A DNA stretch of 64,000 nucleotides from positions 1-64,000 of the forward strand of contig NZ_RKRG01000003.1 in assembly GCF_003814835.1 (NCBI RefSeq). The letters run 5' to 3'. Every line of letters begins with the position of its first letter. Position 1 is the stretch's first letter. Source of the DNA: Methanobrevibacter gottschalkii DSM 11977 (GTDB taxonomy: Archaea > Methanobacteriota > Methanobacteria > Methanobacteriales > Methanobacteriaceae). Made by a program: the position numbers and the translations under genes. The notes under the pieces were generated by a model. The model ran no database searches. It was given only the letters and a program-made list of their open reading frames with translations, and had not been told where the DNA came from. Below are positions 559 to 13,501 of this stretch, piece by piece.

Positions 559-2031
559 TTGAATATTAAAGTATTTGATACTACATTACGTGATGGAGAA
601 CAGACTCCGGGTGTTTCTTTAACTCAACAAGAGAAATTAAGAATTGCAACTAAGCTTGATGAGATTGGTATTGATTATATTGAGGCAGGTTCTGCTATTA
701 CTTCAAAAGGAGAAAGAAAATCAATTAAAGGAATTGCACAACAAGGTTTTAATGCAGAAATATTAAGTTTCTCAAGACCTTTATCAGTTGATATTGATTA
801 TTGTTTAGAATGTGATGTTGATGGTGTTAATTTAGTTGTTCCAACTTCTGATTTGCATATTTCTGATAAATTAAAAATTACACGTGATGAATTAATTCAA
901 TTGTCCAATAATGCTGTTGATTATTGTAAGGATCATGGTTTAATTGTTGAATTATCAGCAGAAGATGCATCAAGAAGTGATACTGATTTTTTAAAATCTG
1001 TTTATCTAAGTGCTATAAATCATGGTGCTGATAGAATTTGTGTTTGTGATACTGTAGGTATATTGACACCAGATTCTTCATTTGAATTATTTGATAAATT
1101 AAATGAGGATATTAATGTTCCTATTGCTGCTCATTGTCATAATGATTTTGGTCTTGCTGTTGCTAATACTTTATCCGCCTTGAAAGGTGGTGCAACAGAA
1201 TTCCATTCAACTATTAATGGTATTGGTGAGCGAGCGGGAAATACTTCTTTTGAGGAATGTGTTGTTAGTATTGACAGATTATTGACAAATTTTTCAACTA
1301 ATGTCAATATTCATGAAATTTATGATATTTCTAAATTAGTTGCCAGATCAACTGGTGTGTATATTCAACCTAATAAAGCAATTGTTGGTGAAAATGCATT
1401 TGCTCATGAATCAGGTATACATTCTGATGGCATTATTAAAAATTCTGCAACATATGAACCTATGACTCCTGAACTTGTTGGCCGTAAACGTAAGTTTGTT
1501 ATAGGAAAACACATGGGGACTCATGGTTTGGAGAATAGACTTAAAGAAATTGGTTTATCAGTTAATAAAACTCAACTTCAACAAATTTGTAATGATATTA
1601 AAGAGTTAGCTGATAAAGGAAAAACTGTTACTGATGTTGATTTACATGTAATAGCGGATAATGTTTTAGAGATAAATCATGAGGATAGGATTAAACTTGA
1701 TGAGTTAACTATTGTTTCCGGAAATAAGATAATGCCAACTGCATCGGTTAAAATAACTTTTGATGATGAAGAAATTCTTAATGCTGGAGTCGGTTTAGGT
1801 CCTGTTGATGCCGCCATTAATGCTGTTAAAACAGTTGATGCATTCAGTGATGTTGAATTAATTGAGTATCATGTAGATGCTATTACTGGCGGTACTGATG
1901 CATTCATTGATGTAATCATTAAATTACAAAAAGGGGATAAAGTTGTATCTGCTCGTGGTACGGAACCGGATATCATTAATGCTAGTGTGAAGGCGTATAT
2001 TTCTGGAGTTAATAGATTATTACGCGATTAG
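559..2031 (+). CDS. cimA: (R)-citramalate synthase / 2-isopropylmalate synthase family protein
   Basis: Condenses acetyl-CoA with a 2-oxoacid; as CimA it would make (R)-citramalate from pyruvate, the entry to isoleucine synthesis. Seen: an HMGL-like TIM barrel opening with FDTTLRDGEQTPGVSLT, the metal-binding HCHNDFGLAVANT and the NGIGERAGN motif, followed by a C-terminal LeuA-type allosteric domain (about residues 370-490). The 490-residue length fits archaeal CimA (about 491) and does not separate it cleanly from LeuA. Start: TTG at 559, four bases after the perfect Shine-Dalgarno GGTGAT at 549-554; the in-frame TTG at 547 overlaps that site and is unlikely. It probably shares a transcript with cgi121, 8 bases downstream. 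The substrate (pyruvate or 2-oxoisovalerate) is inferred, so the symbol is tentative. Confidence 0.75.
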   Translation: MNIKVFDTTLRDGEQTPGVSLTQQEKLRIATKLDEIGIDYIEAGSAITSKGERKSIKGIAQQGFNAEILSFSRPLSVDIDYCLECDVDGVNLVVPTSDLHISDKLKITRDELIQLSNNAVDYCKDHGLIVELSAEDASRSDTDFLKSVYLSAINHGADRICVCDTVGILTPDSSFELFDKLNEDINVPIAAHCHNDFGLAVANTLSALKGGATEFHSTINGIGERAGNTSFEECVVSIDRLLTNFSTNVNIHEIYDISKLVARSTGVYIQPNKAIVGENAFAHESGIHSDGIIKNSATYEPMTPELVGRKRKFVIGKHMGTHGLENRLKEIGLSVNKTQLQQICNDIKELADKGKTVTDVDLHVIADNVLEINHEDRIKLDELTIVSGNKIMPTASVKITFDDEEILNAGVGLGPVDAAINAVKTVDAFSDVELIEYHVDAITGGTDAFIDVIIKLQKGDKVVSARGTEPDIINASVKAYISGVNRLLRD

Positions 2032-10282: not shown

Positions 10283-11032
10283 ATGAAAATGTGCAATCGT
10301 TGCGGTGCAGAAAATAAAGATAAAAGTAATTTTTGTTCAAACTGTGGTGCTATATTAAATAATCCTAAACCTACTCATAGCTATGATAAAAAATTAATAG
10401 AACGATTTATGGATGCTAATATAATTCTTAAATTAATCATAATCATTGTTGCAGTTTTTGTATTTTTTGTTGCTTCAGCATGGATAGGGCATATTTTTTT
10501 TGGAATGCCTTTGGAATTTTATACTGAGGGAGATGCAACTTATCATTTATCTCAATTTAATAAATTGGACCTTGATGGTGATGGCAATCTTACTTTTTAT
10601 GAAGTAAAAGGTTTAGCATCAGATATTTCGCAGGATAATCTTTCAGGGATATTTGATGCCGCCGATAAAAATAACAATGGTGTTTTAAAAGGATCTGAAT
10701 TTGATGGCTATCTTCAGTTTATTGATAAATATTATAAAGAATTAGGAAAGCAGCAAAAAGCTGAAAGAAAAAATTCAGCACAACAAAAAAGTAGTTCTTC
10801 TTCATCAAGTTCTAATCCATCATTTCAAGATGAGGGACATGAAATCTGCCCAGTGTGTGGTGGAAATCAATTTACTGAATTTTACAATTCACAATATGGT
10901 GAAATGAATTGGCAATGTGATTACTGTGGTGAAATATTTCGCAGTGATGATGAGTTTTATATAGATTATTGGGAATCAAATGGCATTAAGTGTATATTGC
11001 CTGCACTGGAGAATAATTTAGATATAATCTAG
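10283..11032 (+). CDS. zinc ribbon - transmembrane - EF-hand - zinc ribbon protein
   Basis: 249 residues with an unusual domain order. An N-terminal zinc ribbon (MCNRCGAENKDKSNFCSNCG) is followed by one membrane helix at about residues 52-74. Next come two calcium-binding EF-hand loops, LDLDGDGNLTFYE at about 96-108 and AADKNNNGVLKGSE at about 130-143. After them come a coiled Lys/Gln/Ser-rich linker with a serine run and a C-terminal zinc ribbon (CPVCGG.. CDYCGE). The EF-hands carry Asp at positions 1, 3 and 5 and an acidic residue at 12, so calcium binding is plausible. Which side of the membrane each ribbon faces is unclear. It is the first of three plus-strand zinc-ribbon genes and no characterised homologue is recognised. 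Confidence 0.72.
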   Translation: MKMCNRCGAENKDKSNFCSNCGAILNNPKPTHSYDKKLIERFMDANIILKLIIIIVAVFVFFVASAWIGHIFFGMPLEFYTEGDATYHLSQFNKLDLDGDGNLTFYEVKGLASDISQDNLSGIFDAADKNNNGVLKGSEFDGYLQFIDKYYKELGKQQKAERKNSAQQKSSSSSSSSNPSFQDEGHEICPVCGGNQFTEFYNSQYGEMNWQCDYCGEIFRSDDEFYIDYWESNGIKCILPALENNLDII

Positions 11033-11046
11033 TATTGGATGATATT

Positions 11047-12087
11047 ATGGAAGATGAAATTGTTTGTCCTAAATGTCATAAAAGAAATGATCTTCATAAA
11101 TTCTGCATTTATTGTGGTCATAAACTGTTGGATGATGATCAGATTGGATTAATTCTTGATAATCCTGAACAGTATTGTCTTAACTGTGGAAGACTTGTTA
11201 AGAAAGGCCAAAAGAAATGTGAATGCGGATATGAATTTAGTGATATAAACTGTCCAGAATGCAATTCAAAAAATTCATATACAAACAGATTCTGCACAAC
11301 ATGTGGAAAGAAACTTTGGACATCTAATGTGTATAATTATAAATATTCTAAACATCTTTTTGAAAAGCATATTCTGAAGGAAGTGTTACCATATTCATTA
11401 CGTAATACATCATTATACCAACGTCCCAAAATGGATTTTACACTTAATCATTTATTGTATTGCAATGAGTATCTTAATGGATTAAAAAGCGCTAAATCTA
11501 AAATAGATGAGTATTTATGTGAAATAGGTTCAAGATGGAAAGTTGTTTCTCCTAATTATTGTATAAATTGTATTAATATAATAAAGCCGGATGAATGCTC
11601 CTGTACAAAATGTGGATCGATTTTATTTGCGGATAAAAAAAGAGTTGATTGTCTTCAAACTAAAAATAAATATGTTAAACCTAAATTTGATAATGTGGAA
11701 TTGAAATGGACTTCAAAATTTTCTAATGATTATTTAGATTCTTTAGCTCCTGCAATCGGCGAATCACAGTTTGAATATAGGGAGAGACTTAAATGGGAAT
11801 TTGCTGAAAATAATTATCATAAAATAAGCATAATTGGCGCAATTGACCGTAAACGGAAAGATGAAGGCCGTAAAAGACAGATAGAAGAGCGTAAAAGACT
11901 GGAAGAAGAATATATAAGGCAATTTGGAGGAGGTTATTGTAGTTCAAGTTGCAGATATCACTACGAAGAAATTATAACTCCTCGCGGGATAAGTGCTGAT
12001 TATACTGATGATATGTATGGTGTTGACTATTGTTGTAGGTTAGGACATTTTGTATCTCATGGAAGTTTTTGTAAAGATTATGAATAG
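11047..12087 (+). CDS. multi-zinc-ribbon soluble protein
   Basis: 346 residues with at least four treble CxxC units: CPKCHKRND..FCIYCG, CLNCGRLVKKGQKKCECG, CPECNSKNSYTNRFCTTCG, and CINCINIIKPDECSCTKCG. No membrane helix is present. The C-terminal part has a highly charged RKRKDEGRKRQIEERKRLEE coiled segment and a final His/Cys-rich tail. Start: ATG at 11047 after GGATGAT; a TTG four codons earlier is less likely. It begins 14 bases after the preceding zinc-ribbon gene, so the two probably form one transcript. Function is unknown. Confidence 0.65.
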   Translation: MEDEIVCPKCHKRNDLHKFCIYCGHKLLDDDQIGLILDNPEQYCLNCGRLVKKGQKKCECGYEFSDINCPECNSKNSYTNRFCTTCGKKLWTSNVYNYKYSKHLFEKHILKEVLPYSLRNTSLYQRPKMDFTLNHLLYCNEYLNGLKSAKSKIDEYLCEIGSRWKVVSPNYCINCINIIKPDECSCTKCGSILFADKKRVDCLQTKNKYVKPKFDNVELKWTSKFSNDYLDSLAPAIGESQFEYRERLKWEFAENNYHKISIIGAIDRKRKDEGRKRQIEERKRLEEEYIRQFGGGYCSSSCRYHYEEIITPRGISADYTDDMYGVDYCCRLGHFVSHGSFCKDYE

Positions 12088-12151
12088 TAACATGAAAAAA
12101 TTAATTGTTAATTATTTAAAACAAAATAAATAAGTTATGGAGGGTTAAAAA

Positions 12152-12904
12152 ATGACAAATAAGATATGTTTTGAATGTGGAATTGAACAAGATGATGCAT
12201 TCAATTACTGCATAAATTGTGGGGCATTACTTTCTAATGAAAATGATGATTCATTATCAAACAGTAATGAATATAGATTGCCAGAAGATATTGAAAATCA
12301 AAATGATGAATATGATAATCTCAATGATGTAAAAACTTGTCCTAAATGCGGGATTGAACAGGAAATTTTTGCTAAGTTCTGCAGAAATTGTGGGGCTTCA
12401 TTTTCCAGTGAAAATAAGGATGAAATCACAATTAGATGTGAGTATTGTGGTGCTGAGTTAAATGATGAGGCATTCTGTCCTGATTGCGGAAAAGCCACTG
12501 GCATAACAATATGTACAAACTGCAGGCAAAAAATAGTGAATGAAGACTTTTGTTCTATTTGTGGATATCAAATTAATCATAAAATTAAAATATGTGCTAA
12601 TTGTGGAAGTAAAATCGATGCAATGGCTAAAGTCTGCGCACATTGCGGTGCAAAAATAATTAAAAAAAATCCTCTTATAGCATTAGGTTTTTCATTTGTT
12701 TTCCCAGGATTAGGCCAATTATATAATAATCAAAACCATAAAGGGTTTATTCTTATTATTGCTAATATAATTTCTTTTATATTGTGTTTTATTTTTATTG
12801 GAATAATATTAGTCATTTTAATATGGATATATGCAATGTATGATGCGGCCACTTCTGCAATAGCTATAAATAAGGGAGAAATTCTCGAGGACAAACTCTT
12901 TTAA
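12152..12904 (+). CDS. zinc-ribbon membrane protein with four to five ribbons and a TM2-like C-terminus
   Basis: 250 residues. The N-terminal 170 residues hold successive ribbons (CFECGIEQDDAFNYCINCG, CPKCGIEQEIFAKFCRNCG, CEYCGAELNDEAFCPDCG, CTNCRQKIVNEDFCSICG, CANCGSKIDAMAKVCAHCG). The C-terminus has two membrane helices separated by a short turn, with FPGLGQLYNNQNHKGFIL before them, which resembles the TM2/TM2D3-type module. A GGAGGG ribosome binding site precedes the ATG. It is 64 bases after the previous zinc-ribbon gene. Function is unknown. Confidence 0.72.
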   Translation: MTNKICFECGIEQDDAFNYCINCGALLSNENDDSLSNSNEYRLPEDIENQNDEYDNLNDVKTCPKCGIEQEIFAKFCRNCGASFSSENKDEITIRCEYCGAELNDEAFCPDCGKATGITICTNCRQKIVNEDFCSICGYQINHKIKICANCGSKIDAMAKVCAHCGAKIIKKNPLIALGFSFVFPGLGQLYNNQNHKGFILIIANIISFILCFIFIGIILVILIWIYAMYDAATSAIAINKGEILEDKLF

Positions 12905-13189
12905 ATTTAAATATATAATTTGTTAAGAAGTCGTATACTCTGATTATTTCATAAATTAAAGCATAGCTATTGATTATTTTGAAATTATATTACTATGAAA
13001 TTTATGAAGAATGCGTGTTATATTAGCTGAAGATTTTCTGGTGAATATTTACATTTTGAATTCATGTAATTTTCATATTGATTCAGAAATTGATAAATGG
13101 AATCATCAATACTGAAGTAGTATATGAAAAAATAGCTGTGGAAATAACTAATCAAATAGGTTGTAGTTTATATGTTAATTTTTTAGAAA
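12905..13189. other. intergenic DNA without an identified gene
   Basis: AT-rich stretch after the zinc-ribbon genes. A 69-codon open frame on the plus strand (13078-13287) has a TTG start, no ribosome binding site and no recognisable domain, and overlaps the palindrome cluster to its right. I do not treat it as a gene. Confidence 0.4.
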
Positions 13190-13400
13190 AGAGAGATAAT
13201 AGGTGTTTAACTGATGCATTAAACACCTCGTGTTTTGAGGAAAATTATGTATTTTGGCAGATTTTTAATTTTCCAACGACTTGTTGAATTAGAGAAATTG
13301 TGTAAAATCTAATTCAACGCATTCTGTTAAATATGGAGATTGTATTATTATTTGACTAATAATATAAGAGAATAATTTAGGTATTCCTAAATTTCATCTC
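13190..13400 (-). ncRNA. candidate structured small RNA, minus strand
   Basis: Between two candidate operators and a terminal hairpin lies about 200 bases with no usable reading frame but four stacked inverted repeats. These are GTTGAATTAGA/TCTAATTCAAC (13283-13318), GGAAAATTA/TAATTTTCC (13239-13274), AAACAC/GTGTTT (13221-13235) and AGGTGTTTAA/TTAAACACCT (13201-13228). The last two share bases and cannot form together. Read on the minus strand, the last hairpin is followed by a pyrimidine-rich stretch, like a terminator. A minus-strand TATA box at 13423-13430 would start transcription near 13400. This is a structural inference with no homologue known to me. Confidence 0.4.
13374..13393. promoter_or_regulatory. 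palindromic operator candidate, downstream site
   Basis: AATTTAGG TATT CCTAAATT, a perfect 8-bp inverted repeat lying just after the predicted minus-strand transcription start near 13400. It shares the TTTAGG/CCTAAA half-sites with the palindrome at 13443-13460. Confidence 0.45.
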
Positions 13401-13421
13401 TACTACTTAGTTGGTTGTCAT

Positions 13422-13431
13422 AGTATATAAA
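13422..13431 (-). promoter_or_regulatory. TATA box of the minus-strand small transcript
   Basis: Read on the minus strand this is ATTTATATAC. It lies between the two palindromes at 13443-13460 and 13374-13393 and downstream of the gatE terminator. The same bases read TATATAAA on the plus strand, but transcription that way would run antisense into gatE. Confidence 0.4.
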
Positions 13432-13442
13432 TGTATCTATTT

Positions 13443-13460
13443 TTTTAGGTTAACCTAAAA
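13443..13460. promoter_or_regulatory. palindromic operator candidate, DtxR/IdeR-box-like
   Basis: TTTTAGGTTAACCTAAAA, a perfect 18-bp palindrome 13 bases upstream of a minus-strand TATA box. The half-site TTAGGTTA matches the left half of the consensus bound by DtxR/IdeR-type metal-dependent repressors, a family also found in archaea. That this factor binds here is inference. Confidence 0.5.
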
Positions 13461-13467
13461 ATTTTTA

Positions 13468-13501
13468 AAAAAGAAGAAAATTTAGGAATGTTTCCTAAAT
13501 T
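13468..13501 (-). terminator. terminator of gatE
   Basis: On the minus strand, the perfect 10-bp stem AATTTAGGAA/TTCCTAAATT (13479-13501, loop of 3) overlaps the gatE stop codon and is followed by TTTTCTTCTTTTTT. This stem plus U-tract is the form of an intrinsic terminator. It shares the TTTAGG half-site with the neighbouring operators, so a regulatory role cannot be excluded. Confidence 0.6.

Follow-up and report, generated by a model that had tools for sequence, protein, structure and literature searches.

The intergenic element beside gatE in the analysed window (the whole 64,000-nt stretch of Methanobrevibacter gottschalkii DSM 11977) is, to judge from its homology and fold, a copy of a structured RNA gene that occurs in gut methane-producing archaea and had not been described before, and we propose that it probably encodes a trans-acting, DtxR-repressed, multicopy iron-sparing small RNA of ~215 nt. 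The data obtained here comprise a gene family, its structure, its operators together with the regulon that they mark, and a conserved complementarity between seed and target. The gene has its own promoter with predicted iron-repressor boxes, and it is noncoding, structured and closed by a terminator. It comprises the following features in the window, listed together with a neighbouring repeat:

13187-13405, minus strand: predicted small RNA gene of ~215 nt (homology to the feoB-side and genus copies; fold z -7.3)
13444-13459, strand-neutral: upstream operator TTTAGGTTAACCTAAA, a perfect DtxR/IdeR box
13424-13431, minus strand: TATA box TTTATATA, which sits between both boxes in nearly all copies
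13376-13391, strand-neutral: downstream operator TTTAGGTATTCCTAAA, a perfect box ~10-15 bp past the predicted start
13340-13367, minus strand: hairpin H2 (TTATATTATTA / TAATAATACAA), a covarying helix in the family
13333-13345, minus strand: single-stranded seed AUACAAUCUCCAU, complementary to the Shine-Dalgarno (SD) sequence GGAGAUUG, with CUCC invariant in 32/32 full copies
13283-13318, minus strand: hairpin H3 (GUUGAAUUAGA / UCUAAUUCAAC) with a conserved loop around CACAAUUU; 11-bp perfect arms, covarying
13239-13274, minus strand: hairpin H4 (GGAAAAUUA / UAAUUUUCC) with the conserved loop UCUGCCA; 9-bp arms
13186-13228, minus strand: hairpin H5 (AGGUGUUUAA / UUAAACACCU) and pyrimidine-rich tail, forming the terminator (terminator-like scan match)
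13479-13501, minus strand: inverted repeat AATTTAGGAA/TTCCTAAATT, overlapping the gatE stop codon (13495)

The inverted repeats, the TATA box and the operator boxes lie at the positions where a sequence-only reading of this DNA had placed them. The perfect palindrome TTTTTAGGTTAACCTAAAAA around the upstream operator spans 13442-13461, further inverted repeats occupy 13374-13393, 13201-13228, 13239-13274 and 13283-13318, and the segment 13340-13367 is 91% complementary. That reading had counted seven inverted repeats; they are present, but the one at 13479-13501 is probably the terminator of gatE and lies outside the RNA, since it extends over the gatE stop codon and a T-rich run comes after it on the minus strand. 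From the TATA spacing and the terminator, we place the predicted RNA start at ~13405-13401 and its end in the T-rich run at ~13193-13186; the downstream operator is also inside the region predicted to be transcribed, as part of hairpin H1 of the predicted RNA. The region had rightly been described as holding no gene: no gene-sized ORF spans the minus strand of 13190-13501, and the sole ORF that reaches into this stretch is a 69-aa plus-strand TTG ORF (13078-13287). The minus-strand RNA from 13401 to 13178 has a folding free energy of -50.2 kcal/mol against a mean of -24.7 for dinucleotide shuffles (z -7.3), and the stem 13228-13201 followed by ATTATCTCTCTTTTCT is terminator-like; counting both strands, the region has two sites of this type compared with 0.0 expected. 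Within one mismatch, the 64 kb contains no box other than the two operators (0.31 expected by chance), and two or more such boxes arose in 5/100 shuffles. Just past the RNA gene, on the other strand, lie three adjacent genes for zinc-ribbon (CxxC) proteins (10283-12904), at least two of which have hydrophobic segments.

Beyond the view of the earlier reading, the gene is one of three family members in its genome, two of which lie next to feoB, and the family is conserved almost genus-wide. The other two copies of the host genome, which were reached via an operator search of the window's own genome, are arranged in tandem and divergent from feoB (L005:12236-12530 and 12566-12845, on the strand opposite to feoB), and they fold with z-scores of -6.9 and -10.3. 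Common to all three copies are the upstream operator, the TATA box, the downstream operator, the hairpins, the CAATCTCC linker and the T-rich end. A first covariance model, covering only the H2-linker-H3 core and built from these three copies, recovered 53 of 60 genus genomes at E <= 0.001, often with several matches in each, and none of 36 genomes from other genera of the family. A second model, rebuilt from 37 matches and run with laxer filters, added weaker matches in four of the seven remaining genomes (best E 5.7e-5 to 1.1e-2), giving a total of 57/60; the three genus genomes without a match are all incomplete, and none of the 19 genomes among those 36 that were searched with this model gave a match. 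A degenerate-pattern scan of one genome per species (84,980 species) returned 20 stretches, all in records named Methanobrevibacter, while the plasmid collection held no match to the RNA and the viral contigs none to the exact pattern. The Rfam search yielded rRNA and chance matches only, with no match in the element at the gathering score and none above chance at a relaxed threshold.

The compensatory base changes on which the sequence-only reading had staked its RNA do occur in relatives. In the 37-member alignment, H2 and H3 covary, with compensatory changes at 11 of 20 pairs (39 compensatory cells) and 96.6% of all cells paired (98.6% in H3); this compensatory-cell count was reached in 0/500 shuffles, and the signal is lost when the partner positions are slid. 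H2 and H4 were missed by RNAalifold on the full MAFFT alignment, where gaps displace the arms, and H1, H4 and H5 were therefore checked one sequence at a time. The complementary arms of H4 and H5 are kept in nearly all copies, with 22 different stem sequences each among 32 copies, while the loops that they enclose are conserved; the GGTGTT/AACACC stem of H5 is conserved in 32/32 copies, and the H4 loop has a mean unpaired probability of 0.94. The outer stem of H1 is only modestly above shuffles in this check, and its arms were not found in the window copy.

Two TTTAGG-N4-CCTAAA boxes (with at most one mismatch) bracket the TATA box in 33 of the 37 copies, so that the operator-TATA-operator arrangement first recognised in the window is kept in the family; the boxes are 68-72 bp apart in the family and 68 bp apart in the window copy. 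The box contains the 14-bp TTAGGNNNNCCTAA, a consensus proposed for IdeR/DtxR (PMC8464063), and both boxes of the window match it perfectly, in agreement with the earlier assignment of the half-site to this regulator type. There are 14 genomic occurrences of the perfect 16-mer compared with 0.24 expected, whereas boxes with up to one mismatch number 27 compared with 22 for a reversed-pattern control; only the perfect sites are clearly in excess. Six of the 14 perfect sites belong to the three RNA loci, and the other eight are found at the feoB promoter, between feoB and feoA, at an SBF-type transporter, at two ABC transporter genes, at an LCM-type methyltransferase and at L008:2477 and L005:4135, described below. 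The occurrence of the box before iron-uptake genes, which had been suggested from the window, is seen at feoB, which is preceded by a perfect and a one-mismatch box, with another box between feoB and feoA. An operon for a DUF6110 protein and a heavy-metal P-type ATPase (L015:2441-4958; G000:C3:66940) stands behind two one-mismatch boxes located 61 bp apart around a TATA box, the two-box layout also seen at the RNA genes.

Such operators also stand at several other loci. A perfect operator with a TATA box at L008:2477 (G000:C3:146976) has no gene-sized ORF downstream on that strand, and the site is a candidate for a further small RNA or small peptide gene. Another, at L005:4135 (G000:C1:686134), precedes an ORF of 34 codons that ends in FFFGCNCH and is located upstream of the gene for a DUF4012 protein; this ORF possibly encodes an iron-responsive small peptide. 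A second RNA type (L028:1804-1891(+) and L035:1162-1248(-)) combines an operator-TATA-operator promoter with a different body that contains a CACTCCGATT linker and an AACTCTC loop; by its promoter, it probably represents another DtxR-controlled small RNA family.

The genome encodes one DtxR-family protein above both Pfam cut-offs (PF01325, PF02742), which has a C-terminal FeoA domain and in which the metal-site motif reads CEMEH. We take the Cys of this motif to stand where DtxR has Cys102, in what may be an Fe-type arrangement. In NCBIfam, the protein falls below the cut-offs of the MntR and DtxR models, with an MntR model scoring highest, and these scores do not separate Fe from Mn sensing. 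The RNA gene is apparently switched off by iron via a DtxR-type repressor, where we infer both the binding of the repressor and the identity of the metal.

The small RNA also carries a predicted SD-complementary seed with plausible iron-protein targets, another feature that had escaped the earlier reading. The linker CAAUCUCC is nearly invariant and complements GGAGAUUG, a form of the SD sequence, and the mean unpaired probability of the seed across 32 copies is 0.84, with 0.89 for the window copy and 0.98 for each of the feo copies. GGAGATT precedes 28 ORFs of the host genome, only ~5 of which encode clear iron or Fe-S proteins. The strongest credible duplexes among these ORFs include those with the formate dehydrogenase alpha subunit gene fdhA (TIGR01591), the polyferredoxin of formylmethanofuran dehydrogenase FwdF (NF042909), and Mmp3 (TIGR03268), while the set also contains rubredoxin and a ferredoxin as weaker candidates. 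At the fdhA leader, pairing reaches 15 nt across the genus compared with 8 nt in sister genera without the RNA. Past the SD sequence, the match in 32 genus genomes extends by 3-8 nt (mean 6.2), compared with 1.0 in shuffled contexts (maximum 1.97 in 2000 trials), figures that are not probabilities because the genus genomes are related; six sister-genus fdhA sequences with the same SD show an extension of 1. Within the fdhA leader of the genus genomes, TTTGGAGATT is invariant while the rest varies, and an uninterrupted 20-bp duplex is possible between the second feo copy and the fdhA leader of its own genome (-24 kcal/mol vs -12.5 for shuffled contexts). At fwdF, ATTTTGGAGAT is kept in 22 of the 23 genus sequences read, a stretch that doubles as the coding end of the upstream gene. 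Outside the RNA genes, TTTTGGAGATT is found at 15 genomic sites, only three of them directly before an ATG, namely those of fdhA, fwdF and a 6-codon frame.

An accessible, conserved seed complementary to iron-protein mRNAs is thus found for the family at fdhA and, with the coding overlap just mentioned, at fwdF, but not at fdhA for the window copy, which reads CAATCTCCATATTT and differs from the family next to the seed. With fdhA, this copy pairs over the SD core only, at -10.8 kcal/mol, a value that does not surpass shuffled contexts, and therefore its own targets are uncertain; its best duplex in the host genome is with mmp3 (GGAGATTGTAT, -17.9). The RNA paralogs may have split their target sets, with the gatE copy perhaps aimed at mmp3. 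One could also envisage that the small RNA, though under DtxR control, leaves iron-protein mRNAs alone and serves instead as a protein binder, a decoy, or a regulator of other genes, for instance those of transporters and surface proteins, a role that would suit the best duplexes of the window copy, formed with mmp3 and non-iron genes, and the capacity of C-rich motifs to pair with many SD sequences, as in the GGAGATT set with its minor share of iron proteins. We consider this unlikely in view of the genus-specific extension of complementarity at fdhA and the 20-bp duplex formed by copy 2.

Copies of the gene are found within 1.5 kb of feoB at no fewer than 17 loci and linked to gatE in two further genomes. 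A structured RNA with a terminator-like end near genes could be a leader (riboswitch or attenuator) that acts in cis on a neighbouring gene; however, this is very improbable, since no downstream gene is consistent, the RNA pointing away from feoB, following gatE or facing unrelated genes, and since the RNA ends in a terminator and the tandem copies each have their own promoter and terminator. There is equally little to recommend a mobile, MITE-like repeat in place of a functional RNA gene: the occurrence of several copies per genome, some in tandem, the partial virus copy and the promoterless copies beside integrases would fit such a repeat, but the compensatory changes in the stems, the retention of the promoter and operators, and the conserved positions beside feoB and gatE speak against it. 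Least probable of all is a small protein gene: short ORFs are present, as chance would provide, but the longest ORFs of the copies are unrelated in sequence (median 18 codons) and 6/32 copies have no ATG. The leader, MITE and peptide-gene readings were rejected on these grounds (no consistent downstream gene, compensatory stems, and no shared ORF).

Copies of the RNA gene are also found in connection with mobile elements. Its promoterless 3' parts lie directly beside genes for phage-type integrases (PF00589) in two loci (L040:267-1448(-) with the RNA part at 1501-1589(+), and L047:279-1388(-) with the RNA part at 1501-1593(+)), and in a third case (L051, near 1501-1591(-)) the RNA gene is split in H2. 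The homology of the promoterless copies starts in H2, and this hairpin of the RNA gene is probably where integrating elements attach. A virus of Methanobacteriales (Caudoviricetes sp. vir323) carries a diverged partial RNA (L055:2983-3194; BK063679.1 3358-3551) that extends from the downstream operator on and includes an altered seed ACTCTCCAAAA and all later hairpins; this copy is unannotated, is without a clear promoter, and has no adjacent annotated integrase.

Iron-sparing small RNAs are known from several bacteria. RyhB and PrrF1/PrrF2 are metal-repressed RNAs of this kind that are Fur-controlled, Hfq-dependent and bacterial, and the PrrF genes form a tandem pair; the archaeal feo copies are tandem as well, while the archaeal RNA has no homology to RyhB or PrrF. 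By analogy, IsrR is the nearest functional counterpart, and MrsI is the nearest with respect to a DtxR-family regulator. IsrR of Staphylococcus is encoded by a single gene, is ~174 nt long with stem-loops and a terminator, and is Fur-repressed at a bacterial promoter, with one repressor box inside this promoter and a second immediately downstream of the start; its conserved single-stranded C-rich regions cover SD sequences, and the fdhA mRNA is a demonstrated target (PMC9410917). The archaeal RNA is similar in its two repressor boxes (in the promoter and just past the start), stem-loops, terminator and C-rich single-stranded regions, but it has DtxR instead of Fur, ~215 instead of ~174 nt, and multiple copies instead of a single gene, and its covering of SD sequences and its fdhA target are predicted. 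No sequence homology between the two RNAs was found, and the two repressor boxes, the C-rich loops and the fdhA target appear to be common to both by convergence. MrsI of Mycobacterium is an iron-sparing small RNA of ~100 nt with a 6-nt seed, a DtxR-family (IdeR) box in the promoter, one gene, and the targets hypF and bfrA (PMC8628891); the archaeal RNA shares the DtxR-family box in the promoter, but it is ~215 nt long, present in several copies, and archaeal rather than bacterial. MrsI under IdeR (PMC8628891) thus constitutes an iron-sparing small RNA of the DtxR-family kind despite a 2022 review that lists none for Fe-sensing DtxR (PMC9294342). In methanogens, the trans-acting small RNAs sRNA154 and sRNA162 of Methanosarcina mazei, the latter of which masks a ribosome-binding site (PMC3600222, PMC3510493), are tied to nitrogen and methylamine metabolism, not to iron, and differ from the RNA described here in lineage and sequence. 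The open literature that we searched, with subscription papers largely outside its scope, contained no archaeal iron-responsive small RNA; the RNA is homologous to no Rfam family and would be, to our knowledge, the first archaeal iron-sparing small RNA.

In the proposed mechanism, when iron is plentiful, the single DtxR/IdeR-type repressor would occupy both operators around the TATA box and the start, keeping transcription off, and when iron is short, the RNA would be produced, with several loci contributing at the same time in many species. The exposed CAAUCUCC seed of the RNA would then cover the SD sequences of mRNAs for iron-rich or dispensable proteins, with formate dehydrogenase FdhA and the FwdF polyferredoxin as the main proposed targets, and the C-rich loops UCUGCC and CUCUCC would perhaps also cover SD sequences. 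We infer that target repression would take the form of a translational block, in the manner of bacterial iron-sparing RNAs, which would spare iron while FeoAB, under the same operators, imports it. In our estimate, the chances are about even that the genus-wide family forms the first iron-sparing small RNA system of archaea, which would lower formate dehydrogenase and FwdF under iron limitation, so that iron would control the entry of formate and CO2 into methanogenesis, with paralogs that differ in seed context, use by integrating elements, carriage by a virus, and convergence with IsrR. If true, methane formation by methanogens of the gut and rumen would be coupled to iron supply through a DtxR-controlled RNA that covers the formate dehydrogenase ribosome-binding site, archaeal RNA biology would gain a conserved family whose seed and target can be tested directly as a pair, and the convergence with IsrR would be striking.
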